From: Caballeronia concitans
GTDB lineage: Bacteria; Pseudomonadota; Gammaproteobacteria; Burkholderiales; Burkholderiaceae
Length of the DNA stretch: 64,000 nt
Direction: 5' to 3'
Assembly (NCBI RefSeq): GCF_001544615.1
Contig: NZ_FCNV02000002.1
Coordinates: 620,001-684,000, forward strand
How positions within the stretch are numbered: the first letter of the stretch is position 1; the number at the start of each line of letters is the position of its first letter. A program made the translations under genes and the position numbers. The notes under the pieces are model-generated. The model had not been told where the DNA came from, did no database searches, and saw only the letters and a list, made by a program, of their open reading frames with translations. This document shows positions 18,740 through 36,214 of the stretch, piece by piece.

Positions 18740-19045
18740 GAAAGTCCTTGTTCGAGGTCGCAAACGATAGCTGGCTTCGCCCTAAAGCACAATCGCCGAA
18801 TTTGATAGAAATGGAAACAATGCGCTTGCGCAATTCTTCAGTTAAATCTACGCTTATACGGCTAACGCGCTGTTAACTGCCTTCATCGGTCGCAATTACT
18901 TTCGTGCTTCAACCGAATCGGTAATTCTAGCCACGACATCATCGACGGGCAAGCAAGCAAAAATTGGTAGAAACGGAAAAGCCCCAATAACAAGCCGGCA
19001 GTTTTGCCGGCAACGCCGCGGACCACGGCGCACACCATAACAACC
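18740..19045. promoter_or_regulatory. 306-bp divergent intergenic region with a hairpin
   Basis: No gene is visible. The region is AT-richer. It holds GCCGGCA-GTTT-TGCCGGC (18994-19011), a 7-bp stem with a 4-nt loop in the leader of the chemoreceptor gene, and two similar purine-rich boxes (GATAGAAATGGAAA and GGTAGAAACGGAAA). No T run follows the hairpin, so it does not look like a terminator. Confidence 0.4.
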
Positions 19046-20614: not shown

Positions 20615-22050
20615 CGCAGCGGCACGATGCCTTCCGCGACGCCCGCCGGCATGCAGATGTGCTTCAGCTCGGTGAAGTCCGCGAGCGCATCGTAGCCGTG
20701 GAGGCGGCCGAGTCCGCTTTGCCGGTAGCCGCCCGTTTCGGCTTCGGCGAAGAGCTTGTTGTGGTCGTTGATCCAGACGGTTCCGTTGCGCAGCGCCCGA
20801 GCGATGCGGAACGCGCGCGGACCGTCGTTCGTCCACACGCTCGCGGAAAGGCCGAAGACCGTATCGTTGGCCTTCGCTATGGCTTCCTGTTCGGTCTCGA
20901 AAACTTCGAGCGTCACGAACGGCCCGAAGATTTCTTCCTGACAGAAGAACGCTTTCGGATCGCCATGTTCGACGAGCGTCGGCGACAGGAACGCATGCCC
21001 CGATCGTTCGCCGCGCAACAACACGCGATCCGCCATGCCGCAGGCGCGTTCGATGGTGCGATCGACGGCATCGCGCGTGTTCGAATCGATGAGCGCGCCG
21101 ATATCCGTCGCCGGATCGATGCCCGGTCCCACCTTCAGCGATGCAAGCGCCGCCACAAGATGCTCGCGCATCTGCGCCGCACGCGATGCATGCACCAGCA
21201 CGCGCCGCGCCGCCGTGCATTGCTGCCCCGAGATGATCGTCGCGGCGCGCGCGAGACGCGGGGCGATGGCGGCGATATCGGCATCGTCGAACACGACGCA
21301 GCATGATTTGCCGCCGAGTTCGAGCGAGAGCTTCTTCATGCTGTCCGCCGCCGTGGTCATGATCTTCTTGCCCGTCGCCGTCGATCCCGTGAAGCTCACC
21401 ACATCCACGTCATGCGATTCCGCGAGCCGCTGGCTCGCCGCGTGTCCCTGTTCGCTGACGAGATTCACCGCGCCCTTCGGCAACGCCGTGCGCTCGAAGC
21501 AGCGCAGCATCGCGGCCGTGACGAGCGACGTCTGCGCGGCGGGCTTCACGACGGCCGTGCAACCCGCCGCGAGCGCGGGCGCGAGCGAGCGCACGAGCAG
21601 CACCGCCGGCGCGTTCCACGGCACGATGATCGCGGCGACGCCGGCCGCTTCGCGCAGCATCGTCGATATCGTGCCGGGTTCGGCTTCGAGCACGTGTCCC
21701 GCGATGTGCCGCGCGAGTCCTGCGTAATAGCGCACTTCGGATATGGCGCCCGCGATTTCTCCGCGCGATTGCGCGATGGCCTTGCCGTTTTCGCGCGTGA
21801 GCAGCGTCGCGAGCGCGTCGCGTTCCGCTTCGAGCGCCGATGCCCAGCCGAGCAGCACGTCCTGGCGCAAGCGCGCGTCCTGCGCCCACGTCGTGCGATC
21901 GAAGACATGGCGCGCGGCGGCGATGGCGGCATCGGCTTCGGCAGCGCCGCCGTCCGCGAACTGGCCGATGGCTTCGCCCGTCGCGGGATCGATGCTGTCG
22001 GCGTTGGGCGTGCCGGTCCATTCGCCGGCAATCCAGTGTCGTGCGTTCAT
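20611..22050 (-). CDS. NAD(P)-dependent aldehyde dehydrogenase, candidate furan-aldehyde oxidiser
   Basis: A 479-residue aldehyde dehydrogenase. The fold markers are [32 protein letters not shown], the general-base segment [16 protein letters not shown], and the nucleophile in [11 protein letters not shown] (Cys near residue 278); [10 protein letters not shown] and [13 protein letters not shown] follow. The substrate is unknown. It begins within the last four bases of the LysR gene upstream (22047-22050), so the two form one unit divergent from the furan operon. This makes oxidation of furfural, hydroxymethylfurfural or formylfuroate a reasonable inference, not a demonstrated one. It is not part of the core hmf set as I know it. 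Confidence 0.88.
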
Positions 22051-22988
22051 GCTGAGCGTTCCTTGATGTTGGTAGATGGTTCGGATGGCGAACTATTTGA
22101 TGCGAGATGCAGTTCATCGCCGATGATCGCGATCAGCGCTTCGGCTGCGGCGCTCAAGGGCCGTCGCGGATGGCTGACGCAGATGACGTGCCGCACGATG
22201 CGCGGCGCGAGAATAGGGCACGCGCGCAAGGTGCCGTGACGCGCCGCACGTTCGACGACGATGCGCGGCAGGATGGTCGCAAAGCGCGTGTGCTCGACGA
22301 GCTTGAGAATGGTCGATAACACGTCGATTTCGAAGCGCGGCGCGAGCAGCACGTCCTCGTGTTGCGCGGCGCTGTCGAGCACGCCGCGCAGGCCGTGGCG
22401 CTTGGTCGGCAGCACGAGTTCCAGTTCGGGCAGTTGCGCGAGTTCGATCGCATGCGGCAGATCGGGGCCGTGCGCGGCGCTGGTGGCGAGCACCATCTCT
22501 TCATCGAGCAGCGCACGCGAATCGAGCGAGAGACGCGCGCGCGGCTTGTTGATGATCGCGGCATCGAGCTGGCCGCCCGCGACCCAGTCGATGAACGTCG
22601 CGCTATAGCCATCCGCGACGGTGACTTCGACATCGGGATAACGCGCATGAAAACGCGAGAGCGAATCCGCAAGCACGCTTTCGGTCACCGACGCGATCAG
22701 CCCGATGCCCACATGCCCCGTCACGACTTCCTCGCGCTGCACGAGTTGCTGCCGCGCGTGCGCGAGGTCGCGCATGATCGGAAGAAACAGGCGATACATG
22801 AGCCGTCCCGCCGCGGTCGGCGCCATGCCGTGCGCGCCGCGCTCGAAGAGCTGCTGATGCAGTTCGTCCTCGAGCTTCGCTATCTGCATGCTCAGCGCGG
22901 GCTGCACGATGTTCAGCCGCTTGGCCGCCCGCGTGACGGAACCGTCCTCGAACAGCGCGATGAAGTACTGGATTTGCTTGAGGTCCAT
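22047..22988 (-). CDS. LysR-family regulator at the left edge of the furan locus
   Basis: A 313-residue LysR protein. The winged HTH at residues 1-60 (MDLKQIQYFIALFEDGSVTR, then PALSMQIAKLEDELHQQLFE) is followed by a periplasmic-binding-protein-like effector domain. It is clearly paralogous to the LysR at 35303-36214, which starts MELKQVQYFIALFEEGTVTR; the two share most positions in the HTH and many in the sensor domain. It is divergent from hmfF and in an operon with the aldehyde dehydrogenase, so control of both directions is likely. GGGGA precedes ATG 22988. Confidence 0.9.
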   Translation of the reverse strand: MDLKQIQYFIALFEDGSVTRAAKRLNIVQPALSMQIAKLEDELHQQLFERGAHGMAPTAAGRLMYRLFLPIMRDLAHARQQLVQREEVVTGHVGIGLIASVTESVLADSLSRFHARYPDVEVTVADGYSATFIDWVAGGQLDAAIINKPRARLSLDSRALLDEEMVLATSAAHGPDLPHAIELAQLPELELVLPTKRHGLRGVLDSAAQHEDVLLAPRFEIDVLSTILKLVEHTRFATILPRIVVERAARHGTLRACPILAPRIVRHVICVSHPRRPLSAAAEALIAIIGDELHLASNSSPSEPSTNIKERSA

Positions 22989-23158
22989 GTTTCCCCGGGG
23001 CATCAGCAACGCTAATGGGCGGTATCACCATTATCAAGTGACTTCGTAAGATGTGCAGCGCGCTTCATGCCAGTGCGCCCAGCAATAACGCGTGAGTGAG
23101 CGATCTATTGATACGTAACTGTAAGAAGCCTGTCATCCGGGCTAACACGGATATAAGA

Positions 23159-23171
23159 GCGAATGATTCGC
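23159..23171. promoter_or_regulatory. Inverted repeat upstream of hmfF, candidate LysR operator
   Basis: GCGAAT-G-ATTCGC is a perfect 6+1+6 dyad, about 95 bp upstream of the hmfF start and 171 bp from the divergent LysR gene. The surrounding intergenic stretch (22989-23265) contains no gene. The position fits a LysR activation site; no matching copy was seen near the other LysR gene. Confidence 0.45.
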
Positions 23172-23265
23172 CGCATCAATAAACAGTATTAGATGTTATG
23201 GGGCGATCTCGCTACGCTTCATCCAATGCGCTTGCCACGGCAGGCGCGCACAGATGGAGACGCTG

Positions 23266-24759
23266 ATGAATACACGCGATGCCGCAACGAACGGCATTCC
23301 CCCATTCGCCTGGGCCCCGAAGGGCGCCGACACCGGCTCGCTTTCGCTGCGCGACTGGCTCGCGCATCTCGCGCAGACCGGCCGCGTCGCGACCATCGAC
23401 AAGCCGGTCGCGCTCGAACACGAACTCGCTGCCATCGCGAAACGCCTCGACGGCACGCAGGCCGCGTTCTTCACGCAGCCGGGCGGTCACGCAATGCCCG
23501 TCGTGAGCGGCTTCATGTCGAAGCGCGCGTGGATTGCGGAAGCAATGGGCGTCGATGAATCCGCGTTGCTCGCGCGCTTTTCCGCAGCGGCCGCCGCGCC
23601 GCTCGAATCGAAACTCGTCGGACGTGAAGACGCGCCGTGCCAGCAAGTGGTGCATACGAGCGATATCGATCTTCACGCGCTCTTGCCTATTCCAACGCAC
23701 AGCGAACACGACAACGGTCCGTACATCACCGCCGGTCTCGTGATTGCGCGCAATCCGCGCACGGGCGTGCAAAACGTGTCGATCAATCGCATTCAGGTGC
23801 ATGGCCGCGATCGCATGGCGATCCTGCTGCTGCCGCGCCATCTCTATGCATTCCAGCGCGCGGCGGAAGAAGCCGGCGATGCGCTCGACGTAGCCATCGC
23901 GATCGGCGTCGATCCGCTCACGATGCTCGCCTCGCAAGCGATCACGCCCATCGATCATGATGAACTCGAAATCGCGGGTGCGCTGCATGGCGCGCCGCTG
24001 CCTGTCGCGCAATGCGTGACGAACGGCGTGCATGTGCCCGCGTTCGCGGAGATCGTCATCGAAGGGCGCATTCTGCCGAACGTGCGCGAGCCGGAAGGCC
24101 CGTTCGGCGAATTCCCGAAGTACTACAGCGCGAAGGAAGCGCGCGAAGTCATCGAAGTGACGGCGGTCACGCATCGGCGCGACCCGGTGTTTCATACGAT
24201 CATTCCCGCTGAGATGGAGCATCTTTTGCTCGGCGGCATTCCGCGTGAAGCCACGCTGCTCGCGCATTTACAGCGCAGCCATCCGGCCGTGAAGGACGTG
24301 CATCTGTCGGTGGGCGGCGTGTGCCGCTATCACCTGTGGGTGCAGTTCGACAAGAAGCGCGAAGGCGAAGCGAAGAACGTCATCCTGTGCGCGTTCGGCG
24401 CGCATTACGACATCAAGCAGGTCGTCGTCGTCGATACGGACGTGGACGTGCACGATCCCGCCGAGATCGAATGGGCCATCGCGACGCGCTTCCAGGCGGA
24501 CCGCGATCTCGTCGTGATCGACGGCGCGCAGGGCTCGCCGCTCGATCCGTCCACGACGGTCGGCCAGCCCGACGACGCGCCCGCGCATCTGCAAGGCGTG
24601 AGCGCCAAGATGGGCCTCGATGCGACGCGCCCGGTCGTGTATCCCGCGCATGTGTTCACGCGCGTGCGCATTCCGGGCCAGGACACGGTGGATCTCGACG
24701 CGCTCGTTGCCGCCGATAACCGTGCGTTCGACGCTTACCTTTCGCGCGATCATGGCTGA
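23266..24759 (+). CDS. hmfF: UbiD-family prenyl-FMN decarboxylase, probable 2,5-furandicarboxylate decarboxylase
   Basis: A 497-residue UbiD enzyme. The prFMN/substrate region shows NVSINRIQVHGRDRMAI and the catalytic glutamate segment EPEGPFGEFPKYYS near residue 275, the family hallmark. UbiD enzymes need prenylated FMN, and the maturase (UbiX type) follows at once with an eight-base overlap. In the hydroxymethylfurfural pathway HmfF removes one carboxyl from 2,5-furandicarboxylate to give 2-furoate. Specificity is inferred from the neighbours (furoyl-CoA dehydrogenase, furoyl-CoA synthetase, GMC oxidase). ATG 23266 follows GGAGA; the in-frame ATG at 23254 overlaps that site. Confidence 0.87.
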   Translation: MNTRDAATNGIPPFAWAPKGADTGSLSLRDWLAHLAQTGRVATIDKPVALEHELAAIAKRLDGTQAAFFTQPGGHAMPVVSGFMSKRAWIAEAMGVDESALLARFSAAAAAPLESKLVGREDAPCQQVVHTSDIDLHALLPIPTHSEHDNGPYITAGLVIARNPRTGVQNVSINRIQVHGRDRMAILLLPRHLYAFQRAAEEAGDALDVAIAIGVDPLTMLASQAITPIDHDELEIAGALHGAPLPVAQCVTNGVHVPAFAEIVIEGRILPNVREPEGPFGEFPKYYSAKEAREVIEVTAVTHRRDPVFHTIIPAEMEHLLLGGIPREATLLAHLQRSHPAVKDVHLSVGGVCRYHLWVQFDKKREGEAKNVILCAFGAHYDIKQVVVVDTDVDVHDPAEIEWAIATRFQADRDLVVIDGAQGSPLDPSTTVGQPDDAPAHLQGVSAKMGLDATRPVVYPAHVFTRVRIPGQDTVDLDALVAADNRAFDAYLSRDHG

Positions 24760-25366
24760 ACGGAAGAAGCGAATCGTCGTCGGCATCTCGGGCGCGAGCG
24801 GCGCGGTCATCGGCCTGCGCCTGCTTGCCGCGTTGCGCCGTCTGGGCACGCACGAGACGCATCTGATCGTGTCGGCATCGGGCGCGGTGACGGCCGCGCA
24901 GGAACTCGGCCTCACGCGCGGCGACATCGATTCCCTCGCGGACGTCGTGCATAACGTGCGCGATATCGGCGCGGCCGTGGCGAGCGGATCGTTCCTGACC
25001 GAAGGCATGGTCATCGCGCCGTGTTCGATGAAAACGCTCGCGGGCGTGGCCAACGGCTTCGCGGACAACCTGCTCACGCGCGCCGCCGATGTCATGCTCA
25101 AGGAGCGTCGCCGCCTCGTGCTGGTCGCGCGCGAGACGCCGCTCAATCTCGCGCATCTGCGCAACATGACGCTCGCCACCGAAATGGGCGCGATCGTGAT
25201 GCCGCCGGTGCCCGCGTTCTACGCGCATCCGAAGACCATCGACGATGTGGTCGATCACACGGTGGGGCGCATTCTGGATTTGTTCGGCATCGAGCACGCT
25301 GAAATCGCGCGCCGCTGGAGCGGTCTCGCCGATGAATTCAGCGGCCGCGCCGAAGGTGAGGAGTGA
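24752..25366 (+). CDS. hmfG: UbiX-family flavin prenyltransferase
   Basis: A 204-residue flavoprotein that transfers a dimethylallyl group to FMN, making the prFMN cofactor for the UbiD partner. The FMN-binding start VVGISGASGAVIGLRLL, the central GSFLTEGMVIAPCSMKTLAG, NLLTRAADVMLKERR and the end motif PPVPAFYAHPKTIDD match UbiX/Pad1. ATG 24752 lies inside the last codons of hmfF (overlap 24752-24759), which suggests translational coupling. The gene for the molybdenum subunit follows after four bases. Confidence 0.9.
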   Translation: MAERKKRIVVGISGASGAVIGLRLLAALRRLGTHETHLIVSASGAVTAAQELGLTRGDIDSLADVVHNVRDIGAAVASGSFLTEGMVIAPCSMKTLAGVANGFADNLLTRAADVMLKERRRLVLVARETPLNLAHLRNMTLATEMGAIVMPPVPAFYAHPKTIDDVVDHTVGRILDLFGIEHAEIARRWSGLADEFSGRAEGEE

Positions 25367-25370
25367 CGCG

Positions 25371-28300
25371 ATGAACCAGCGCGAAACCGCATTTGCTGAA
25401 ATCGACGCGCCGCAGCGTCACGTCGGCCGTTCGATGCAGCGCCTCGAAGACCCGGCGATCCTGACGGGCCGTGGCCGCTATGGCGACGACATCGCCGTGA
25501 AGCCGGGCACGCTGCACGCCGCGATTCTGCGCTCGCCGCATGCGCACGCGGATATCGTGTCGATCGATACCGAAGCCGCGTCGAAGCTCGCGGGCGTGCG
25601 CGCCGTGCTCACGCGCGACGACTTGCGTCCGTGGTCGCGTCCGTTCGTCGTCGGCGTGAAGTCGCCGATGGAACAGTGGGCGCTCGCGATGGATCGCGTG
25701 CGTTACGTCGGCGAGCCGGTTGCGGTCGTGATGGCCGAATCGCGTGCGCTCGCGGAAGACGCGCTCGATCTCATCAAGGTCGAATACACGATGCGCGATC
25801 CGGTGACGTCCATCGAGCAATCCGTGATGGACGATGCGCCCGTGCTGCACGAGCGCGTCGGCACCAACGTCATCAGCGACCGGCATTTCCGCTACGGCGA
25901 GCCGGAAGCCGCGTTCGAAAGCGCGCCGCATCGCGTCAAGCTGGTCGCGCATTATCCGCGCAACACGTGCGCGCCGATCGAATGCGGCGTGGTCATCGCC
26001 GAATACTTGTCGGGCGACGAAGGCTACGACGTCACGTCCAATTTCATGGGGCCGTTCTCGCTGCACGCCGTCATGGCGATGGCGCTCAACGTGCCCGCGA
26101 ACCGCCTGCGTCACAAGGCGCCGCGCGATTCCGGCGGCAGCTTCGGCGTGAAGCAGGCGGTGTTTCCGTATGTCGTGCTCATGTGCCTCGCATCGCGCAA
26201 GGCAGGTGCGCCGGTGAAGTGGGTCGAGGACCGGCTCGAGCATTTGAGCGCGGCGACATCGGCGACGGCGCGCGTATCGACGATAGAAGCCGCCGTCGAA
26301 AACGATGGCCGTATCGTCGCGCTCTCGTACGATCAGATGGAAGACGTCGGCGGTTACGTGCGCGCGCCCGAACCCGCGACGTTCTACCGGATGCACGGCT
26401 GCCTGACGGGCGCGTATGCGATCCCGAATCTCGTCGTGCGCAATCGCGTGGTGCTGACGAACAAGACGCCGACCGGCCTCGTGCGCGGCTTCGGCGGGCC
26501 GCAAGTGTACTTCGCGCTGGAGCGGCTGATTCAGCGCATCGCCATCGAACTGAAGCTCGATGTGCCCGATGTCTATCGCCGCAACTTCGTTCCCGCCGAT
26601 GCGTTCCCGTATCGCGCGGCAGCGGGCGCGCTGCTCGATTCGGGCAACTATCAGGAAGCGCTGCGCCGCTCGATCGACGAGGGCGGATATCGCGAACTCG
26701 CCGCGCGCCGCGATGCCGCGCGCAAGGAAGGGCGGCTCTATGGCATCGGCTTCGCGGCGATCGTGGAGCCGTCGGTATCGAACATGGGCTACATCACGAC
26801 CGTGATGCCCGCCGACGCGCGCCGAAAAGCCGGCCCGAAGAACGGCGCGATTGCGAGCGCAACCGTGAGCGTCGATCTGTTGGGCGGCGTGGTCGTGACC
26901 ATCGCATCGACGCCGGCGGGACAGGGCCACATGACGGTGTGCGCGCAAGTCGTCGCGGACGTACTCGGGCTCGATCCGAAAGATATCGTCGTCAACGTCG
27001 AATTCGATACGCACAAGGACGCGTGGTCCGTCGCGGCGGGCAATTATTCGAGCCGATTCGCGGGCGCGGTGGCCGGCACCGTGCATCTCGCCGCCACGCG
27101 CGTGCGCGACAAGCTCGCGCGCGTGCTCGCGAAGCAGTTCGGCTGCGCGCCCGGTGACGTGCGATTCGAAGGCGCGCGCATCTTTCCGAACGATGCCGAA
27201 GATCGCGCGCTGCCGTTCGCGCGTGCCGCGAGCAATGCGCCGCACTGGGCGCCCGCGTTGTTGCCCGATGGCGACGAGCCGGGCCTGCGCGAGACCGTGT
27301 TCTGGTCGCCGCCGCACATGGATGCGCCTGACGAGCAGGACCGCATCAATACGTCGGCGGCGTATGGCTTCGCGTTCGACATGTGCGGCGTCGAAGTGGA
27401 TCGCGAGACGGGGCGCGTGCGCATCGACCGATACGTGACCGTCCACGATGCCGGCACGATCCTCAATCCCGCGCTCGCCGATGGCCAGATTCGCGGCGCG
27501 TTCGCGCAGGGCGTGGGCGCGGCGCTGATGGAAGAGTTTCGCTACGGCGCGGACGGCAGCTTCCAGTCCGGCACGCTCGCCGACTATCTGATGCCGACGA
27601 CCTGCGAAGTGCCCGATCCCGTGATCGTGCATATGGAAACGCCGTCGCCTTTCACGCCGCTCGGCGCGAAGGGACTCGGCGAAGGCAACAACATGAGCAC
27701 GCCGCCGTGCATCGCGAATGCAGTGGCGGATGCGCTCGGTGTCGAGGACATTCGCTTGCCGCTCACGCCGCCCAAGGTGATGGCGATGATCGGCATCGAC
27801 GATCCCGAGCCTTCGCGGCCCGAGTATCGCGAAGCATCGCCGACGAAAGCCGCAACGCCGGGCGGCGGACGCGCGCTCACGGCGCAAGGCGCGGTCGATC
27901 TGCCCGCGACGCCCGAAGCCGTGTTCGCCGTGCTCCTCGATCCGAAGGCGCTCGCGAACGTGATACCCGGCTGTCATGCGCTCGACGAAACCGCGCCGAA
28001 CCAGTATCGCGCGGACGTGACGGTGGGCGTCGGCATGATCAAGGCGCGTTTCGAGGCGCGCATCGGCTTGTCGGAAATCGATGCGCCGCGTCGCCTGCGT
28101 CTCGCGGGCGCGGGCATCTCGCCGCTCGGCAGCGCGCGCGGCAGCGGCATCGTCGAACTGACGCCGCAAGGCAGCGGCACGCGCCTCACGTACGACTACG
28201 AAGCGCAGGTGTCGGGCAAGGTCGCGGCGGTCGGCGGCCGCATGCTCGAAGGCGCGGCGAAGGTCGTGCTGAAGCAACTGTTCGAATCGCTCGGAAGGCA

Positions 28301-28376
28301 GGCGGCGGGCAAGCCGGTGCAAGCGCATGGATCGTGGATAGCGAGACTCCTCGCCCGTTTTGGGAGACGAGCATGA
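25371..28376 (+). CDS. hmfA: Furoyl-CoA dehydrogenase, molybdopterin-binding large subunit with C-terminal CoxG-like domain
   Basis: A 1001-residue xanthine-oxidase-family large subunit. Start RHVGRSMQRLEDPAILTGRG is typical of the CoxL-type group. Molybdopterin contacts include PRDSGGSFGVKQAVFPYVVL and TGLVRGFGGPQVYFALERL; the putative active-site glutamate is in GAKGLGEGNNMSTPP near residue 768. After about residue 830 an extra domain begins (ALTAQGAVDLPATPEAVFAV, then IPGCHALDETAPNQYRADV), which reads as an SRPBCC/CoxG domain, normally a separate protein. The enzyme should hydroxylate 2-furoyl-CoA at C5 with HmfB and HmfC. The stop overlaps hmfB (ATGA). GAGGAG lies upstream of ATG 25371. 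Confidence 0.87.
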   Translation: MNQRETAFAEIDAPQRHVGRSMQRLEDPAILTGRGRYGDDIAVKPGTLHAAILRSPHAHADIVSIDTEAASKLAGVRAVLTRDDLRPWSRPFVVGVKSPMEQWALAMDRVRYVGEPVAVVMAESRALAEDALDLIKVEYTMRDPVTSIEQSVMDDAPVLHERVGTNVISDRHFRYGEPEAAFESAPHRVKLVAHYPRNTCAPIECGVVIAEYLSGDEGYDVTSNFMGPFSLHAVMAMALNVPANRLRHKAPRDSGGSFGVKQAVFPYVVLMCLASRKAGAPVKWVEDRLEHLSAATSATARVSTIEAAVENDGRIVALSYDQMEDVGGYVRAPEPATFYRMHGCLTGAYAIPNLVVRNRVVLTNKTPTGLVRGFGGPQVYFALERLIQRIAIELKLDVPDVYRRNFVPADAFPYRAAAGALLDSGNYQEALRRSIDEGGYRELAARRDAARKEGRLYGIGFAAIVEPSVSNMGYITTVMPADARRKAGPKNGAIASATVSVDLLGGVVVTIASTPAGQGHMTVCAQVVADVLGLDPKDIVVNVEFDTHKDAWSVAAGNYSSRFAGAVAGTVHLAATRVRDKLARVLAKQFGCAPGDVRFEGARIFPNDAEDRALPFARAASNAPHWAPALLPDGDEPGLRETVFWSPPHMDAPDEQDRINTSAAYGFAFDMCGVEVDRETGRVRIDRYVTVHDAGTILNPALADGQIRGAFAQGVGAALMEEFRYGADGSFQSGTLADYLMPTTCEVPDPVIVHMETPSPFTPLGAKGLGEGNNMSTPPCIANAVADALGVEDIRLPLTPPKVMAMIGIDDPEPSRPEYREASPTKAATPGGGRALTAQGAVDLPATPEAVFAVLLDPKALANVIPGCHALDETAPNQYRADVTVGVGMIKARFEARIGLSEIDAPRRLRLAGAGISPLGSARGSGIVELTPQGSGTRLTYDYEAQVSGKVAAVGGRMLEGAAKVVLKQLFESLGRQAAGKPVQAHGSWIARLLARFGRRA

Positions 28377-29194
28377 AGCCCGCACCGTTCGACTACTTGC
28401 GCGCGATGACCACGCAAGACGCGCTCGATGCGCTCGCGCAATACGGCGAAGACGCGCGCGTGCTGGCGGGCGGCCAGTCGCTGATGGCCGTGCTCAACAT
28501 GCGGCTCGCGCAGCCGAAGGTGCTCGTCGATATTTCGCGCACCGCCGAGCTGAATGCCGTGCGCGTGGACGAGCGTGCGGGGCATCTCGTCGTGAACGCG
28601 GCGGCGACGCAAGGCAGCGTCGAATGGCGCGCCACGCTCGCCGACGAAACGCCGCTGCTCGCGATGGCCTTCCCGCATATCTCGCACTTTCAGATTCGCA
28701 ATCGCGGGACCGTATGCGGGTCCGTCGCGCACGCGGACCCGAGCGCGGAGTTGCCGCTCGTGCTGTCCGCGCTCGGCGGCGACGTGATGCTGCGCTCGAA
28801 GAAGAAGCGCCGCACGCTCGCGGCGGAAGACTTCTTTCAGGGCATGTTGATGACCGCGCGCGAGCCGGACGAACTCGTCGAAGCGGTGCGCTTCCCGCTG
28901 CGCAAGCCGGGCGAGCGCTACGCGTTCACGGAATTCTCCGCGCGCCACGGCGACTTTGCGATCGTCGCGTGCGCGGCGGTCGTTACCGACGATTCGATTC
29001 GCATCGCGGTGGGCGGCGTCGCGGACCGGCCGGTGACGGAGCGCTGGCCGCGTTTGCAAGGCGACGACCTGCGCGGCGCGCTGAACGATTTGAGCTGGAA
29101 ACTGAACGCGCAGGACGACGCGCACATCAGCGCGAAATATCGCCGGAATCTGGTCCGGCAACTCGGATGGCGCGCGATAGAGGAGGCGAAGTGA
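28373..29194 (+). CDS. hmfB: Furoyl-CoA dehydrogenase, FAD-binding medium subunit
   Basis: A 273-residue subunit of the molybdenum hydroxylase. The FAD-binding type-5 motifs are present: VLAGGQSLMAVLNMRLAQP (residues ~30-50) and IRNRGTVCGSVAHADPSAEL (~105-125), followed by the CO-dehydrogenase-flavoprotein C-terminal domain (FTEFSARHGDFAIVACAAVV). It passes electrons from the Fe-S subunit to the external acceptor. Four-base overlaps with hmfA and hmfC show tight coupling of the three subunits. Confidence 0.9.
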   Translation: MKPAPFDYLRAMTTQDALDALAQYGEDARVLAGGQSLMAVLNMRLAQPKVLVDISRTAELNAVRVDERAGHLVVNAAATQGSVEWRATLADETPLLAMAFPHISHFQIRNRGTVCGSVAHADPSAELPLVLSALGGDVMLRSKKKRRTLAAEDFFQGMLMTAREPDELVEAVRFPLRKPGERYAFTEFSARHGDFAIVACAAVVTDDSIRIAVGGVADRPVTERWPRLQGDDLRGALNDLSWKLNAQDDAHISAKYRRNLVRQLGWRAIEEAK

Positions 29195-29727
29195 GCAAGA
29201 TGTCGGACACCCTCATGCGGCACGGCGAAGCGCGGCGCATCACGCTGACGCTCAACGGCCGCGAACGAAGCGGCCATTGCGAGCCGCGCGAACTGCTGTC
29301 GGACTTCATCCGGCACGAACTCGGCGCGACAGGCACGCACGTCGGCTGCGAGCACGGCGTATGCGGCGCATGCACCGTGCATGTCGATGGCGTCGCCGCG
29401 CGCTCGTGCCTGATGCTCGCGGTGCAGGCCGACGGACGGCGTATCGATACGGTCGAAGGCCTCGCGCCCGACCAGACGCTCGGCGACTTGCAGCAGGCGT
29501 TCCAGCGGCATCACGCATTGCAGTGCGGCTTCTGCACGGCGGGCATCCTGATGTCGTGCGCGGATTATCTGGAGCGCGTGCCTAATCCGACCGAAGCGCA
29601 AGTGCGCGAGATGCTGTCCGGGCATATCTGCCGCTGCACGGGCTATACGCCGATCGTCGCCGCCGTGCTGGACGTGGCGGCGCGTCGGCGAACGAATGCA
29701 GACGTTAAGGAGACCGAACATGCTTGA
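29191..29727 (+). CDS. hmfC: Furoyl-CoA dehydrogenase, [2Fe-2S] small subunit
   Basis: A 178-residue iron-sulfur subunit. The plant-ferredoxin-type cluster ligands are in GCEHGVCGACTVHVDG plus SCL (near residues 53, 58, 61, 73). The second cluster uses CGFCTAGI and ICRCTGY (near 112-115 and 148-150), as in all xanthine-oxidase-type small subunits. I chose GTG 29191 (GTGA overlap with hmfB, AGGAGG upstream) though ATG 29200 is possible. The final stop overlaps the hmfD start. Confidence 0.9.
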   Translation: MSKMSDTLMRHGEARRITLTLNGRERSGHCEPRELLSDFIRHELGATGTHVGCEHGVCGACTVHVDGVAARSCLMLAVQADGRRIDTVEGLAPDQTLGDLQQAFQRHHALQCGFCTAGILMSCADYLERVPNPTEAQVREMLSGHICRCTGYTPIVAAVLDVAARRRTNADVKETEHA

Positions 29728-31285
29728 TCTCGGACGCACCTTCCTGCAAAGCGTGGAACGCAGCCCGAACGCGCTCGCGCTCGTCGATGGCGACGTGCAA
29801 CTGACTTACACGCAGTGGCATCGCATGATCCTGAATGTGGCCGATGGCTTGCGCGAGCTTGGGATAGAGCGCGGCGACCGGCTGCTCGTCGTGCTGCAAA
29901 ACCGCTGGGAAATGGCGACGCTGCACTGGGCCGGGCAATTCGCAGGCATCGTGATCGTGCCGCTCAACTGGCGCGCGAAGCCTGAGGAACTCGACTACTG
30001 CGTGACGGACGCGGGCGTGAAGGCGATCGTCTACGAACCCGTTTCCGCCGATGCCGTCGTGCAAAGCCCCGCCGCGCAAAACGTGCCGCGTATCGCGCTC
30101 GACGATGCGCCCGGCGGCACGATGAACTTCGATGCGCTCATCGTCGAAAAAGAGAGCGCCGAAGAAACGACGCATGCCACCGCCGACGACATCTCGCTGA
30201 TCCTCTACACGTCCGGCACCACGGGCAAGGGCAAGGGCGTGCCGCGCAGGCATCGGCATGAACGCGCGGGCGCGCTCGCACACGTCGCGCAGAACCTGTA
30301 TAAGCGCGGCGAACGCACGCTCGGCGTGATGCCGCTCTATCACACGATGGGCGTGCGCTCGCTGCTTGCGATGGCCCTCGTCGATGGCCTCTTCGTCTGC
30401 GTGCGTCGCTGGAATGCGAAGCTCGCGCTCGAATGCATCTCGAAGCACGCGCTCACGTGCCTCTATCTCGTGCCGACGCTTTATCACGACCTGCTCGCGG
30501 ACAGCGCGTTTGCCGACACGGATACATCGTCGGTAAGAAAGCTCGGCTTCGCGGGCGCGCCGATGAACGATGGCCTGCTCAAGCGCCTCTCGGCGGCGTT
30601 CGAGCCGGAACTGTTCGTCAATCACTACGGCTCGTCCGAGGTCTACACGTTCAGCATCGATCAGGACGCGACGAAGAAGCCCGGCAGCGCGGGCCGCGCG
30701 GGCATCAACACGCGGCTGCGCGTCGTGAAGCTCGATGCGCTTTCGCCCGACGAGATCGCGGAAGCCGGCGAGGAAGGGCAGATCATCGTGGACCTGCTCG
30801 GCGACGAAGCGTTCGAAGGCTACTGGAATCGGCCGGACGCGAACGCGAAGTCGCTACGCGGCGGCTGGTACTTCACCGGCGACACCGGCTATCTCGACCG
30901 CGACGGCGATCTCTACGTGACCGGCCGCGTCGATGACATGATCATCAGCGGCGGAGAGAACATCTCGCCGGTGGATATCGAATCGGTGCTGTCGCTGCAC
31001 CCGGCGGTGGATGAAGTCGCGGTCGCGGGCGTCAAGGACGAACGCTGGGGCCAGCGCGTGGTCGCGTTCATCAAGCGCCGCGAGTATGTCGATTCCGACG
31101 CGCTCGACGCGTGGTGCCGCCAGTCCGATCTCGTCAACTTCAAGCGTCCGCGCGACTACGTGTTCGTCGACGACATTCCGAAATCGCCGGTCGGCAAGAT
31201 CCTGCGCCGCAAGCTCCAGGCGGGCGAATACGCGCCCGACGCCAATGCACCGACCGCACAACCTACAGAGACTACGAAGGAGTAA
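29720..31285 (+). CDS. hmfD: AMP-forming acyl-CoA synthetase, probable 2-furoyl-CoA synthetase
   Basis: A 521-residue ANL-superfamily ligase. The P-loop reads ILYTSGTTGKGKGVPRRH (near residue 160-178), the aromatic site NHYGSSEVYTFSID, the hinge region YFTGDTGYLDRDGDLYVTGR followed by DDMIISGGENI, and the catalytic lysine segment KSPVGKILRRKL. It activates a carboxylate to a CoA thioester with ATP; furoate is the inferred substrate from the pathway context. It overlaps hmfC by eight bases and is followed by hmfE after six. Confidence 0.87.
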   Translation: MLDLGRTFLQSVERSPNALALVDGDVQLTYTQWHRMILNVADGLRELGIERGDRLLVVLQNRWEMATLHWAGQFAGIVIVPLNWRAKPEELDYCVTDAGVKAIVYEPVSADAVVQSPAAQNVPRIALDDAPGGTMNFDALIVEKESAEETTHATADDISLILYTSGTTGKGKGVPRRHRHERAGALAHVAQNLYKRGERTLGVMPLYHTMGVRSLLAMALVDGLFVCVRRWNAKLALECISKHALTCLYLVPTLYHDLLADSAFADTDTSSVRKLGFAGAPMNDGLLKRLSAAFEPELFVNHYGSSEVYTFSIDQDATKKPGSAGRAGINTRLRVVKLDALSPDEIAEAGEEGQIIVDLLGDEAFEGYWNRPDANAKSLRGGWYFTGDTGYLDRDGDLYVTGRVDDMIISGGENISPVDIESVLSLHPAVDEVAVAGVKDERWGQRVVAFIKRREYVDSDALDAWCRQSDLVNFKRPRDYVFVDDIPKSPVGKILRRKLQAGEYAPDANAPTAQPTETTKE

Positions 31286-31291
31286 CACGCC

Positions 31292-32098
31292 ATGAGCGAT
31301 TTGAACCATCGCGGCCACGCGCTGCTGCAAGACCTCGACGGCTTTTCCGTCGAAATCGACGAAACGCGCGAGCGCGCGGATATCGTGCTGCACCGCCCGC
31401 CGTTCAATGTCATTTCGATGCACGCACGCGACCAGTTGCGCGCCGTGTTCGAAGCACTCGACGAAGACGACCGCGTGCGCGTGATCGTCGTGCGCGCGAC
31501 CGGCGAGCACTTTTCTAGCGGCGGCGACATCAAGGGCTTTCTGGAAGCATCGCCGGAACACGTATCGAAGCTCGCGTGGAATATCGCGGCGCCCGCGCGC
31601 TGCTCGAAGCCGGTGATCGCGGCCAATCGCGGCTTCTGCTTCGGCGTGGGCTTCGAGTTGTCGCTCGCGTGCGACTTCCGCATCGTCACCGACACGACCT
31701 TCTACGCGTTGCCGGAACAGAAGCTCGGCCAGATTCCCGGCTCGGGCGGATCGGCGCGCTTGCAGTCGATGGTCGGCATCGGCCGCACGAAGGACATCGT
31801 GATGCGCTCGCGCCGTATCCCCGGCAAGCAGGCATACGACTGGGGCATTGCGGTCGATTGCGTGGCCGATGCGGAACTCGAATCGGCCACGGATGCGCTC
31901 GTCGATGAGTTGCGCGCGTTTTCGCCGCTCGCGCAGCGCACCGCGAAGAAGCTGCTGAACGATACGGAAGACTCGCCGCTTTCGATCGCCATCGAACTCG
32001 AAGGGCATTGCTATAGCCGCCTGCGCGCGTCCGACGATTTCCGCGAAGGCGTCGAAGCGTTTCATGGCAAGCGCAAACCGGCGTTTCGCGGTAGCTGA
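31292..32098 (+). CDS. hmfE: Crotonase-family enzyme, probable 2-oxoglutaroyl-CoA hydrolase
   Basis: A 268-residue crotonase. The oxyanion-hole segment is ATGEHFSSGGDIKGFLE and the second NRGFCFGVGFELSLACDFRI. At the first catalytic position a glutamate is kept (YALPEQKLGQIPGSGG), while the second reads TKDIVMRSRR (Asp instead of Glu). In the furoate route HmfE releases 2-oxoglutarate from its CoA ester after the ring has been hydroxylated and opened. Assignment depends on its place in the operon; AAGGAG lies upstream of the ATG. Confidence 0.85.
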   Translation: MSDLNHRGHALLQDLDGFSVEIDETRERADIVLHRPPFNVISMHARDQLRAVFEALDEDDRVRVIVVRATGEHFSSGGDIKGFLEASPEHVSKLAWNIAAPARCSKPVIAANRGFCFGVGFELSLACDFRIVTDTTFYALPEQKLGQIPGSGGSARLQSMVGIGRTKDIVMRSRRIPGKQAYDWGIAVDCVADAELESATDALVDELRAFSPLAQRTAKKLLNDTEDSPLSIAIELEGHCYSRLRASDDFREGVEAFHGKRKPAFRGS

Positions 32099-32118
32099 AC
32101 CAAACCAGGAGACAGGCG

Positions 32119-33840
32119 ATGGATCGCTTCGATTACGTGATCGTGGGCGGCGGCTCAGCGGGATGCGTGCTCGCGCATCGGCTGTCGGCGGCGCCGTCGG
32201 TGCGCGTCGCGCTGATCGAAGCGGGCGCGGATACGCCGCCGGGCGCGGTGCCCGCCGCCATTCTCGACAGCTATCCGATGCCGGTCTTCTGCGGCGACAC
32301 CTATATCTGGCCGGACCTCAAGGCGAAGGCCACGAAGCACGCCGCGCCGCGCGTCTACGAGCAGGGCCGCGTGATGGGCGGCGGATCGAGCATCAACGTG
32401 CAGTCGGCCAATCGCGGCCTGCCGCGCGATTACGACGACTGGGCCGCGAACGGCGCCGATGGCTGGTCGTGGCGCGACGTGCTGCCGTACTTTCGCAAGC
32501 TCGAACGCGACGTGAACTTCCCCGGCGGCGAACTGCATGGCAGCGATGGTCCGGTGCCCATTCGACGCATCATGCCGAAGGACTGGCCCGCGTTCTGCCA
32601 CGCGTTCGCGAAGGGCATGCGCGCGAACGGCCTCGCGGAATTACAGGACCAGAACGGCGAGTTCGGCGACGGCTTCTTTCCCGGCGCGTTTTCCAATATC
32701 GACGATGCGCGCGTCTCCACGGCCATCGCCTATCTCGACGAAGCCACGCGCAAGCGCCCGAATCTCAGCGTGCATGCGAATCTGCGCGTCGAGCGCATCG
32801 TGATGGAAGGCGCGGCTGCGCGCGGTGTCGTCGCGATTGCGGGCAACGGCGAGCGCGTGCATTTCGAGGCGAACGAAGTCGTGCTCTGCGCGGGCGCGTT
32901 GCAGTCGCCCGCGATGCTGCTGCGCGCCGGTATCGGCGATGCGCGCGAACTCGCGGCGCAGGGCATTGCATGTACGGTGGATGTGCCGGGCGTCGGACGC
33001 AATCTGCAGGATCATCCGTCGCTCACGTTCTGTCATTTTCTCGAGCCGCGCTTTCGCATGCCGCTCGCACGACGCCGCGCGAGCATGACGGCGGCGCGCA
33101 TGAGCTCGGGCGTCGCGGGCTGCGATGATTCGGACCTCTATCTATCGAGCGCGACGCGCGCCGCGTGGCACGCGCTCGGCAACCGGCTCGGCCTCTTCTT
33201 CCTGTGGTGCAACCGGCCGTATTCGCGTGGCCGCGTGCAGCTCGCATCGCCCGATGCGGCCGCTGCGCCGCGCGTCGATCTGAACCTGCTCGACGACGAA
33301 CGCGACCTGCAACGGCTCGCCGTGGGCGTGCGCATGCTCGCGCGCATTGTCGATGCATCGGGTCTCGGCCGCGATCCGCGCGACTTCTTTCCGGCCGCGT
33401 TCTCGCCGCGCGTAAAGGCGTTGAGCCGCGTCGGCGACGGCAATGCGCTGCTGACGTCGATGCTCGGCGTGCTGCTCGATACGCCCGCGCCGCTCAGGCG
33501 CCTGCTGATCGAACGCTTCTTCACGCGCGGCCTGAAGATGTCCGCCCTGATAAACGACGACCGCGCGCTCGACGATTTCATCCGCGCGAACGTGTTCGGC
33601 GTGTGGCACGCGAGCGGCACGTGCCGCATGGGCGGTCCGCAAGACCGCGACGCCGTGACGGACACCGAAGGCCGCGTGCGAGGCACACAAGGGCTGCGCG
33701 TGGTGGATGCATCGCTGATGCCGCGCCTGCCATCGGCCAATACGAACATACCGACCATCATGATCGCCGAGAAGATCGCCGATGCGATGGTCGCCGGGCG
33801 AAGAGCGGGCGCCGAATCGCGCATCGCCGCCGCGCACTGA
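32119..33840 (+). CDS. hmfH: FAD-dependent GMC oxidoreductase, probable hydroxymethylfurfural oxidase
   Basis: A 573-residue glucose-methanol-choline oxidoreductase. The ADP-binding Rossmann start is DYVIVGGGSAGCVLAHRL; GMC signature 1 is RVMGGGSSINVQSANRG; the C-terminal catalytic pair is HASGTCRMG (His near residue 497) and SANTNIPTIMIAEKIAD (Asn near 540). HmfH-type enzymes oxidise hydroxymethylfurfural stepwise to 2,5-furandicarboxylate, which feeds HmfF. Choline or other alcohol oxidation cannot be excluded by sequence alone, but the locus supports the furan role. Preceded by AGGAGA and 20 bp after hmfE. Confidence 0.85.
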   Translation: MDRFDYVIVGGGSAGCVLAHRLSAAPSVRVALIEAGADTPPGAVPAAILDSYPMPVFCGDTYIWPDLKAKATKHAAPRVYEQGRVMGGGSSINVQSANRGLPRDYDDWAANGADGWSWRDVLPYFRKLERDVNFPGGELHGSDGPVPIRRIMPKDWPAFCHAFAKGMRANGLAELQDQNGEFGDGFFPGAFSNIDDARVSTAIAYLDEATRKRPNLSVHANLRVERIVMEGAAARGVVAIAGNGERVHFEANEVVLCAGALQSPAMLLRAGIGDARELAAQGIACTVDVPGVGRNLQDHPSLTFCHFLEPRFRMPLARRRASMTAARMSSGVAGCDDSDLYLSSATRAAWHALGNRLGLFFLWCNRPYSRGRVQLASPDAAAAPRVDLNLLDDERDLQRLAVGVRMLARIVDASGLGRDPRDFFPAAFSPRVKALSRVGDGNALLTSMLGVLLDTPAPLRRLLIERFFTRGLKMSALINDDRALDDFIRANVFGVWHASGTCRMGGPQDRDAVTDTEGRVRGTQGLRVVDASLMPRLPSANTNIPTIMIAEKIADAMVAGRRAGAESRIAAAH

Positions 33841-33919
33841 AGGACCGGCACAACGATTCCTTAACCTCGACAAGAGCACGCATCGAAAAAGCGTGCCGAT
33901 GACACACATGGAGATGCAT

Positions 33920-35296
33920 ATGTCCGTAGCAGCGCAAGACGGGGCCGCCGTGCTTCCGGCCAATCAGCGGCAAATCATGGGCGCAGTCATGGCATCGTGC
34001 CTCGGCTGGGCCCTCGATCTGTTCGACCTGTTCGTGTTGTTGTACGTGGCGCCCGTCGTCGGGCGTCTATTCTTCCCATCCGAACACGCGATGCTTTCGC
34101 TCGCGGCGGTCTATGCGTCGTTCGCGGTGACGCTTCTGATGCGCCCGCTCGGCTCCGCGCTATTCGGCTCCTACGCGGACCGTCACGGCCGCAAGGGCGC
34201 GATGATCTTCGCGGTCGTCGGCGTGGGCGTGTCGACGGCGGCCTTCGGCCTGCTGCCGACGGTCGCGCAGGCCGGTCTCCTCGCGCCGATTCTCTTCCTG
34301 CTGCTGCGTCTCGTGCAGGGCGTGTTCGTCGGCGGCGTGGTGGCGTCGACGCATACCATCGGCACCGAATCCGTCGCGCCGAAGTATCGCGGCGCGGTGT
34401 CCGGACTGATCGGCGGGGGCGGCGCGGGACTCGGCGCGCTGCTCGCATCGCTCACGTTTCTGGCGATGTCCGCCATCTTTCCCGGCGATGCATTCGATAC
34501 GTGGGGCTGGCGTTGCATGTTCTTCACCGGCATTCTGAGTTCGGTGCTCGGCCTCTTCGTGTTCAATAGCCTCGAAGAATCGCCGCTATGGAAGAAGCTC
34601 GCCGCCGAGAAGGCCGCGAAAGCCGCCGCGCAGACGAAGAGCGCGAAGGCCGAAGTGGTGCGCTCGCCCATTCGCACGCTGTTTTCGCGGGAATATCGCG
34701 GCGTGCTGTTCGTGAACCTGCTGCTGACCATCGGCGGCGGCAGCGGCTACTACCTGACGTCGGGCTATCTGCCGACGTTCCTCAAGGTCGTGAGTCATGC
34801 GCCGAACGGCGCGGCAGCCGCGATCCTGATGATCTGCAGCGTGGCCGTGGTGGTCGCATCGGTGGCGGCGGGGCATATCAGCACGTTCATCGGGCGCAAG
34901 GGCGCGTTCATCTGGATCGGCCTGATCCGGCTCGTCGCGCTGCCCGGCCTCTTCCTGCTGTTGCCGACGGCGCAAAGCATCACGATGATCGGCGTCTACG
35001 CGGTGCTGCTCTCCGCGCTCGGCAGCGCGGGTTATGCGCCGGTGCTGATCTTTCTGAACGAGCGCTTCCCGACCGCCATCCGCGCGACGGGCACGGGCCT
35101 TTCGTGGAATATCGGCTTCGCGATCGGCGGGATGATGCCGACGTTCGTCTCGCTCGTCGCGAAGGACGCGAGCCAGTTGCCCTCGACGCTCGCGATCTTC
35201 GCCGGCGCGATCAGCGTGATCTTCATCGTGGGCGCGTTCGTGGTGCCGGAGACGCTCGGCAAGCTCGACAACGGCGCGGCGCGCAATCCTTCGTGA
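33920..35296 (+). CDS. MFS transporter, aromatic-acid:H+ symporter type, probable furan-acid uptake
   Basis: A 458-residue major facilitator with 12 hydrophobic segments. It starts AVMASCLGWALDLFDLFVLL and has the loop 2-3 motif GSYADRHGRKGAMI. The sequence FVGGVVASTHTIGTESVAPK marks the sugar/acid symporter group that includes aromatic acid transporters. As last gene of the hmf operon it probably imports furoate or furandicarboxylate (HmfT role). Four in-frame ATGs exist (33899, 33908, 33914, 33920); GGAG at 33910-33913 favours 33920. Confidence 0.82.
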   Translation: MSVAAQDGAAVLPANQRQIMGAVMASCLGWALDLFDLFVLLYVAPVVGRLFFPSEHAMLSLAAVYASFAVTLLMRPLGSALFGSYADRHGRKGAMIFAVVGVGVSTAAFGLLPTVAQAGLLAPILFLLLRLVQGVFVGGVVASTHTIGTESVAPKYRGAVSGLIGGGGAGLGALLASLTFLAMSAIFPGDAFDTWGWRCMFFTGILSSVLGLFVFNSLEESPLWKKLAAEKAAKAAAQTKSAKAEVVRSPIRTLFSREYRGVLFVNLLLTIGGGSGYYLTSGYLPTFLKVVSHAPNGAAAAILMICSVAVVVASVAAGHISTFIGRKGAFIWIGLIRLVALPGLFLLLPTAQSITMIGVYAVLLSALGSAGYAPVLIFLNERFPTAIRATGTGLSWNIGFAIGGMMPTFVSLVAKDASQLPSTLAIFAGAISVIFIVGAFVVPETLGKLDNGAARNPS

Positions 35297-35302
35297 GCGG
35301 CC

Positions 35303-36214
35303 TCATTCGGCCGGTGCGCCCGTGGTCACGCGCCGGATTTCCTCGGTGATGATCGCGATCAACGCCGAAGCGGCCGGCCCGATCGGCCGCTTCGGATGCG
35401 TGACCTGAATGATGTGGCGCACGATCGGCGGGACCGCGATCGTGCGCGCGCGCAGCAGGCCTTGATCGACCTTCGCCTGCACGACGACGCGCGGCAGGAT
35501 CGTCGCGATGCTGCTCTGCTCGACGAACTGCACGATCGTGCTGAGCAGATCGATCTCGAACTTCGGCTGAATGACGACGTCGGCGGCCATGAGCGCGGCA
35601 TCGAGCGCGCCGCGCAGGCCGTTGCGGCGCGTGGGCAACACGAACTCGATGCCGGACGGCGCCGTGAGATCGATGGCGTCGGGCAGGTCCGGACCGTGCG
35701 CCGCGCTCGTCACCAGCACCATTTCCTCGACGAGCAACGGTTCGACATCGAGCGTGAGCCGCCCGCGCGGCTTGTTGATGATGGCGGCATCCAGCCGGCC
35801 AGATTCGACGGCGTCGATGAGCTGCGCGCTGAAGCCATCGGCGACGGAGACTTCCACTTGAGGAAACAGCGCATCGAAACGCGCCAGCGATTCGGGCAAC
35901 ACGCTCTGCGCTTCCGACGACACCATGCCCAGCGACACGCGTCCCGTCACGATGACATCGCGCCGGCTCAGATGCTCACGCGCGTGATCGATGTCGCGCA
36001 TGATCGGCGTGTAAAGGCGGTACATGAGCCGCGCGGCTTCGGTGGGCGCCATGCCGTGCGGACCGCGCTCGAAGAGCTTCTGCCGGATCTCGGTTTCGAG
36101 CTTGGCGATCTGCATGCTGAGCGCGGGCTGCGCGATATTCAGCCTTTTCGCGGCGCGCGTGACGGTGCCCTCTTCGAACAGGGCGATGAAGTACTGAACC
36201 TGCTTCAATTCCAT
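35303..36214 (-). CDS. LysR-family regulator at the right edge of the furan locus
   Basis: A 303-residue LysR protein, close paralogue of the one at 22047-22988 (HTH start MELKQVQYFIALFEEGTVTR; shared AAKRLN, PALSMQIAKLE and LFERG-HGMAPT patterns; shared AAHGPDLP in the effector domain). It faces the transporter gene six bases away and is transcribed toward it. Two such regulators bounding one operon suggests duplicated control, one perhaps answering to hydroxymethylfurfural or dicarboxylate and the other to furoate; that split is inference. Confidence 0.9.
   Translation of the reverse strand: MELKQVQYFIALFEEGTVTRAAKRLNIAQPALSMQIAKLETEIRQKLFERGPHGMAPTEAARLMYRLYTPIMRDIDHAREHLSRRDVIVTGRVSLGMVSSEAQSVLPESLARFDALFPQVEVSVADGFSAQLIDAVESGRLDAAIINKPRGRLTLDVEPLLVEEMVLVTSAAHGPDLPDAIDLTAPSGIEFVLPTRRNGLRGALDAALMAADVVIQPKFEIDLLSTIVQFVEQSSIATILPRVVVQAKVDQGLLRARTIAVPPIVRHIIQVTHPKRPIGPAASALIAIITEEIRRVTTGAPAE

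Follow-up and report, generated by a model that had tools for sequence, protein, structure and literature searches.

A predicted hmf block for furan degradation in Caballeronia concitans, with a CoxG domain fused to the large dehydrogenase subunit, a probable LysR operator and a decayed second locus

Can a single run of genes account for the degradation of a furan such as 5-hydroxymethylfurfural (HMF) to 2-oxoglutarate, and what travels with it? The question is raised by a locus of Caballeronia concitans that lies in a 64,000-nucleotide stretch of contig NZ_FCNV02000002.1 (positions 620,001 to 684,000; hereafter the window, part of contig C12 in our numbering of a genome of 6.17 Mb and 47 contigs), and for which a preliminary description made from the letters alone had proposed an HMF/furoate catabolic block between two LysR genes. 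Its bounds, 22047..36214, were right (the LysR1 stop lies at 22047 and the LysR2 start at 36214): a LysR gene on the minus strand is followed by hmfF-ubiX-hmfABCDE-hmfH and a major facilitator superfamily (MFS) transporter gene on the plus strand, and then by another LysR gene on the minus strand, all reading frames being open and none broken. Gene types were called by Pfam and NCBIfam profile matches, which bore out each type named, LysR included. We think it very probable that the block is the hmf gene set by which furans are used for growth under aerobic conditions; good support for a furan substrate comes from the gaps between the best solved matches of HmfF and HmfH and the next enzymes, the kept active sites, the conservation of the block, and the presence of its operator both at a second, relic hmf locus and before both units of split Cupriavidus loci.

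The argument starts from the enzymes that would handle the free furans. In a sequence search of the PDB, the best solved match of HmfF was 6h6v/6h6x (458 bits, the next enzyme, AnInD, reaching 213); the PDB record names 6h6v only as a decarboxylase, and we take 6h6v/6h6x to be PtHmfF, the 2,5-furandicarboxylic acid (FDCA) decarboxylase of Pelotomaculum. H323 and R331 of HmfF align with residues 296 and 304 of the 6h6v chain, presumably substrate-binding residues of PtHmfF. The UbiX encoded next to it scores above the cut-off of its NCBIfam model (Table 1). HmfH, a glucose-methanol-choline (GMC) oxidoreductase, is closest to 5-hydroxymethylfurfural oxidase (HMFO; 4udp/6f97, 439 bits versus 229 for the next enzyme), whose residues Asn102, Trp369, Trp466, His467 and Asn511 are given as fully conserved (PMC7414962; here and below, PMC numbers stand for excerpts of the papers). 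All five are kept in HmfH, as N93, W363, W496, H497 and N541, and HMFO positions 103 and 367, each often substituted or an engineering site (PMC7414962), are V and F in a by-eye reading of the alignment. With the UbiD-type enzyme closest to 6h6v/6h6x and the GMC enzyme closest to HMF oxidase, the furan substrate put forward in the preliminary description gains support.

How would a furan then be consumed? HMF would be oxidized to 5-hydroxymethyl-2-furancarboxylic acid (HMFCA), 5-formyl-2-furancarboxylic acid (FFCA) and FDCA by HmfH together with one or more aldehyde dehydrogenases, probably the neighbouring one (ALDH); HmfF, using prenylated flavin made by UbiX, would convert FDCA to 2-furoate, and HmfD would turn this into furoyl-coenzyme A (furoyl-CoA). 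The flux would continue through HmfABC, a molybdenum (Mo) enzyme predicted to hydroxylate furoyl-CoA, after which the product would open to 2-oxoglutaryl-CoA in a step without an assigned gene, and HmfE would release 2-oxoglutarate. The MFS protein (235.7 bits against TIGR00883, below the cut-off of 443) would import furan acids and probably serves furoate/HMFCA uptake, and LysR1, LysR2 or both would act at an operator before hmfF that drives the entire plus-strand run. The ALDH gene was not among the genes first listed and extends the locus leftward; it is probably co-transcribed with LysR1, and its product is a candidate for both HMF to HMFCA and FFCA to FDCA, lying under the cut-off of each of the best 25 among the 43 NCBIfam models matched. 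It adjoins LysR1 in 13 of 22 loci of the same gene order, found among 85 HmfA-bearing loci (80 on named genome contigs, 5 on plasmids; presence was judged within the stretch fetched for each locus), and a review notes an adh gene near hmf clusters (PMC6604932).

Several points weigh against so full a pathway. HMFCA is now reported as the main substrate of HmfH (PMC12064950), a preference that may place the first oxidation outside the run, and the neighbouring ALDH may be required for the aldehyde steps. Perhaps, then, the block serves mainly the uptake of FDCA and 2-furoate (or furfuryl compounds) while HMF is converted to HMFCA elsewhere, for example by another aldehyde oxidoreductase, an alternative consistent with that preference, with the 9 of 22 same-order blocks beside which no ALDH was found, and with the 42 of 82 hmfABCDE loci in which UbiD is absent from the fetched stretch. 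In a furoate-only pathway, however, HmfH and HmfF would be useless, and their closest solved kin are an HMF oxidase and what we take to be an FDCA decarboxylase; we regard the alternative as unlikely. A further reservation about the full furan pathway concerns HmfD and HmfE, which on their own are family-level matches; their roles are assigned from the genes that regularly accompany them, hmfA to hmfE standing together in 82 of the 85 loci (the best hmfE match is at least 72% identical in loci where it was found). The order ABCDE is common to Cupriavidus loci L005, L006 and L033 at 74-87% identity, a comparison made with Cupriavidus loci other than the characterised HmfA-H genes of Cupriavidus basilensis. 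Among the domains of the run no lactonase domain was found, nor was an XdhC-type maturation gene in the block, an XdhC gene being present elsewhere in the genome (contig C18). Since the lactone-opening step has no assigned gene, the preliminary description went too far in calling the pathway complete, with all steps present; in C. basilensis, too, that step is without an assigned gene and possibly spontaneous (PMC6678421), and a putative ‘hyd’ is given for it in Pseudomonas (PMC12064950).

Could the substrate be a different acid, heteroaromatic or aromatic, that the block degrades as its CoA thioester? Among PDB entries, the closest to the core of HmfA are CO dehydrogenase and quinoline 2-oxidoreductase, and the closest to HmfD is 4-chlorobenzoate-CoA ligase, but none of the PDB matches listed is named as a furoyl-CoA enzyme, and HmfA lies under the curated cut-offs of all 14 models that it matched, xanthine dehydrogenase included. 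It falls short of the CoxL models of aerobic CO dehydrogenase (447 versus 950 and 406 versus 991 bits), and the models for the alpha and beta subunits of 4-hydroxybenzoyl-CoA reductase are missed as well (355 versus 995 and 39 versus 405 bits). With UbiD and GMC pointing to furans, we consider such a substrate highly improbable. The search for closer non-furan relatives that the preliminary description had called for thus left the furan assignment in place: UbiD is nearest to 6h6v/6h6x, the Mo subunit is under every curated cut-off, and the ligase matches at family level only.

Is it unusual that all these genes form one block? The contrast with two Cupriavidus clusters that had been drawn at the outset is real, L005 and L033 each comprising two transcription units; the arrangement is nevertheless common in Caballeronia and Paraburkholderia, and the single block was rejected as an unusual feature. 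Order and strand from hmfF to the MFS gene are identical in 22 of the 85 loci (from Caballeronia, Paraburkholderia, Ralstonia soli and Burkholderia sp. WSM2230), all 22 with a LysR gene before hmfF and 17 with one after the MFS gene, and the nine genes share a single strand in 29; the seven one-strand loci of other order belong to Cupriavidus (L005, L033 and L035, two units), Bordetella genomosp. 4 (L042) and Bradyrhizobium (L070, L072, L077). A close HmfA occurs in 40 of the 249 genomes of the family sample, this one included, and the block arrangement is ordinary for this bacterial group. The authors of the B. phenoliruptrix genome paper had already inferred the same enzyme set for mutualistic Burkholderia (PMC4101177). 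Caballeronia also has a second hmf cluster type, with hmfE before hmfA (L027, L029, L030, L032, L048), and C. arvi contigs hold both types (L009, L048).

What accepts the electrons when the furan ring is hydroxylated? A hint comes from HmfA itself, in which the Mo part (residues ~15-810) is followed by a CoxG domain (~834-978) and a basic C-terminal tail. The C-terminal domain scores 76.9 bits against PF06240 (cut-off 22.2) and is homologous to the solved CoxG 8uds (E 1e-13). That the fusion is peculiar to this genome was rejected, as it is general among the HmfA proteins seen (89 of the 89 loci with an identified HmfA), 80 of the loci having been ranked by their match to the whole HmfA query, CoxG included. 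Among five neighbourhoods outside the genus that were picked by HmfE, four have it, and in the fifth (G869) HmfA is outside the fetched stretch, with a match over residues 13-983. The structure model of HmfA has a predicted local distance difference test score (pLDDT) of 79 and a predicted template modelling score of 0.75; two fold searches with the whole model matched the Mo-hydroxylase core (in the best 50 of 1349 matches in one, and in 50 listed entries, with a span of 10-828, in the other) and are uninformative on the CoxG fold, no CoxG chain being among the matches listed, and residues 985-993, with pLDDT below 50, are modelled with low confidence. An amphipathic helix was considered for the tail and rejected: the charge fits, but shuffled tails have hydrophobic moments from which that of the real tail does not clearly stand out (for the median HmfA tail, 0.14 of the shuffles are at least as high).

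The fusion suggests that furoyl-CoA dehydrogenase is coupled to membrane quinones. It is conceivable, though we would put it at slightly less than an even chance, that the CoxG domain, carried on a flexible linker (810-832) and helped by the basic tail, binds to the membrane, picks up ubiquinone and delivers it to the flavin adenine dinucleotide (FAD) of HmfB. Or does the domain serve as a membrane anchor only, with no role in electron transfer? CoxG-like proteins anchor the glycerol-3-phosphate dehydrogenase of Sulfolobus acidocaldarius, where quinone is reduced without them (PMC11962113), and a tail net charge of at least +2 in 87 of 87 loci would suit an anchor, whereas a 2026 paper that models CoxG near the FAD region of CO dehydrogenase and, citing Kropp 2025, proposes that CoxG mediates electron transfer to quinone (PMC13077300) speaks for more than anchoring, as does the homology to 8uds; anchoring alone, too, we accept only tentatively, somewhat below even odds. 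In the literature searched, no paper was found that names furoyl-CoA dehydrogenase together with CoxG. If quinone delivery by CoxG is true, electrons from hydroxylation of the furan ring would pass directly into the respiratory chain, and furan degradation would rely on the CoxG mechanism of CO dehydrogenase, in a version where the partner is part of the large subunit.

How might the block be switched on? When the spacers between LysR and hmfF were aligned for the window and 29 relatives, a highly conserved operator emerged, TGAT-N7-ATCA-N3-AACA-N-TATTAG, at 23164-23192 in the window and mostly followed by TTAT. It is the single match in the window at up to 3 mismatches (0.01 expected), and 28 of the 29 relatives keep TGAT-N7-ATCA and TATTAG in register upstream of UbiD, the exception being Sphingomonas locus L088 (L021 and L039 vary in the bases between). 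In the split Cupriavidus loci L005 and L033 the operator precedes both hmfF and hmfA, and it precedes hmfA in L034, L035, L036 and L041. The stretch 23164-23199 is the probable LysR site of the hmf promoter, and it may be bound by LysR1 as well as LysR2, because their DNA-binding parts are identical at 49 of 60 residues. The two regulators are indeed paralogues, as first described, with 62% identity over 303 amino acids and 69% DNA identity over 535 bases. In a LysR tree of 64 rows, LysR2 groups with the Cupriavidus LysR that precedes hmfABCDE, at modest support (84/88); this fits, and does not prove, a merger of two divergently read units in which both regulators were kept.

Does the operator mark anything else in this genome? 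At up to 2 mismatches there are exactly two sites (none in the reversed control), the second at C35:62209-62237 (L096 10210-10238, minus strand), within a decayed second hmf locus. What accompanies it is a 36-base ubiX-like scrap (weak, E 6e-4), a 77-base scrap that resembles the MFS gene at its end, 191 bases from the end of LysR2, and an intact 233-codon gene of the fatty-acid-hydroxylase family (L096 9230-9931, minus strand; PF04116 32.1 bits, cut-off 31). This hydroxylase gene is absent from the window block and occurs in 15 of the 22 loci of identical order (fragmented in L014), as well as in L005, L033, L034, L035, L038 and L054. Between the L096 copy and that of L004 there are 25, 16 and 87 differences at codon positions 1, 2 and 3, and 202 of 232 residues are identical; the differences being mostly at third codon positions, the gene was evidently kept while the rest decayed. 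In a related genome, G215, the main block and a stub (L107; G215:C4, ~237.0-238.1 kb) lie on different contigs, the stub having an operator-like site (1 mismatch), partly different hmf scraps and a full-length hydroxylase match; G108, whose block is also without the gene, yielded no match of this kind. At C35 the gene is apparently under hmf control. Membrane adjustment and methylfuran hydroxylation are guesses at its role. A sequence search gave no solved relative, NCBIfam gave no match, and the papers found that name sterol desaturase, furfural and hmf are silent on hmf gene clusters in their titles and abstract openings.

Was the window block, then, horizontally replaced by the C35 locus type? 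We considered this and found that, at gyrB, C. concitans shares 93% identity with G108, G215, G191, G116, G637 and G185, the same genomes that are nearest over hmfH-MFS (87-89%), whereas the C35 stub is 94-95% identical to G132, G100, G618, G146, G619 and G139, with gyrB at 91-92%, which suggests descent with the species for the hmfH-MFS part, the C35 stub being the newcomer. Against this, HmfA is 96% identical to G132 and G232 but 92% to G191 and G081, and the window block may therefore be a mosaic.

Coordinates are collected in Table 1. The overlapping starts first ascribed to nearly all genes are fewer than that: with the start codons chosen here, on which the figures depend, four of the eight junctions overlap (hmfF/ubiX by 8, hmfA/hmfB by 4, hmfB/hmfC by 4 and hmfC/hmfD by 8 bases) and the other four are gaps of 4, 6, 20 and ~79 bases. 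To the left of the block, a methyl-accepting chemotaxis protein gene (19004-20614, plus strand), possibly for a furan chemoreceptor, is convergent with ALDH, and a putative regulator with a MerR-like helix-turn-helix and a GAF domain lies at 17630-18763 (minus strand); to the right, 37730-39937 (plus strand) encodes a large protein with a two-partner secretion (TPS) domain and an extended signal peptide.

Table 1. Features of the locus and of the decayed second locus, with predicted functions (window positions unless marked otherwise)
Feature	Position	Strand	Basis and remarks
Aldehyde dehydrogenase (ALDH)	20611..22050	-	PF00171, 476 bits; 4-base overlap with LysR1
LysR1, divergent from hmfF	22047..22988	-	PF00126, PF03466; start 22988 chosen from the MDLKQIQYF reading
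Conserved operator with following TTAT	23164..23199	+	Alignment of relatives; probable LysR site, hmf promoter
hmfF, UbiD-type FDCA decarboxylase	23254..24759	+	PF01977/20696/20695; ATG 23254 or a later in-frame ATG
ubiX (hmfG in Cupriavidus), flavin prenyltransferase	24752..25366	+	NF004685, 278.6 bits, cut-off 188
hmfA, Mo subunit of furoyl-CoA dehydrogenase with fused C-terminal CoxG	25371..28376	+	PF01315/02738/20256, PF06240
hmfB, FAD subunit	28373..29194	+	PF00941, PF03450
hmfC, 2Fe-2S subunit	29191..29727	+	PF01799, PF00111; GTG 29191 or ATG 29200
hmfD, furoyl-CoA synthetase	29720..31285	+	PF00501, PF13193; ATG 29720 preferred, 29696 possible
hmfE, crotonase-fold 2-oxoglutaroyl-CoA hydrolase	31292..32098	+	PF00378
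hmfH, GMC HMF/HMFCA oxidase	32119..33840	+	PF00732/05199
MFS transporter	33920..35296	+	PF00083/07690; ATG 33920 or 33908
LysR2, paralogue of LysR1	35303..36214	-	PF00126, PF03466
Decayed second hmf locus	L096 9019-10271 (C35, ~61.0-62.3 kb)		Operator, scraps of ubiX, MFS and LysR2, intact hydroxylase gene

What is the significance of such a block? The hmf pathway is useful for lignocellulose detoxification and for FDCA chemistry, and the block both confirms and extends it. Beyond annotation, it draws attention to the electron acceptor of furoyl-CoA dehydrogenase, by way of the fused CoxG, to a defined operator marking hmf promoters in Burkholderiaceae, and to the fatty-acid-hydroxylase-family gene retained beside that operator at the decayed second locus.

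How does the block compare with known systems? The hmf genes of C. basilensis HMF14 were reportedly described by Koopman in 2010, and LysR regulators presumably accompany them. That strain likewise has hmfF, hmfG/ubiX, hmfH, hmfABCDE and a transporter, HmfT1 (PMC6678421, PMC12064950, PMC6604932), but in two clusters, hmfABCDE for furfural and hmfFGH for HMF (PMC6604932), whereas here hmfABCDE lies between ubiX and hmfH. On Cupriavidus plasmids, a gene for a tripartite-tricarboxylate-transporter binding protein follows ubiX (L005 16126-17088, L006 14193-15167), an uptake system unlike the MFS protein of the window. The Caballeronia sp. M1242 plasmid NZ_CP071131 (L004) has ALDH, LysR, hmfF to MFS and LysR arranged as here in order and strand, at 87-97% protein identity, and differs by a gene of the sterol-desaturase family (fatty acid hydroxylase) that lies between MFS and LysR2. 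Pseudomonas umsongensis GO16 shares hmfABCDE, hmfF, a UbiX homologue and a LysR gene, but is without hmfH, having the dehydrogenases PsfG and PsfA instead (PMC12064950). In CO dehydrogenase, CoxL (8uem) and CoxG (8uds) are homologous to the core and the C-terminal domain of HmfA, respectively. The copper-cysteine motif of CO dehydrogenase was not seen in our reading of HmfA, and CoxG, a separate protein in CO dehydrogenase, is in HmfA fused to the large subunit.

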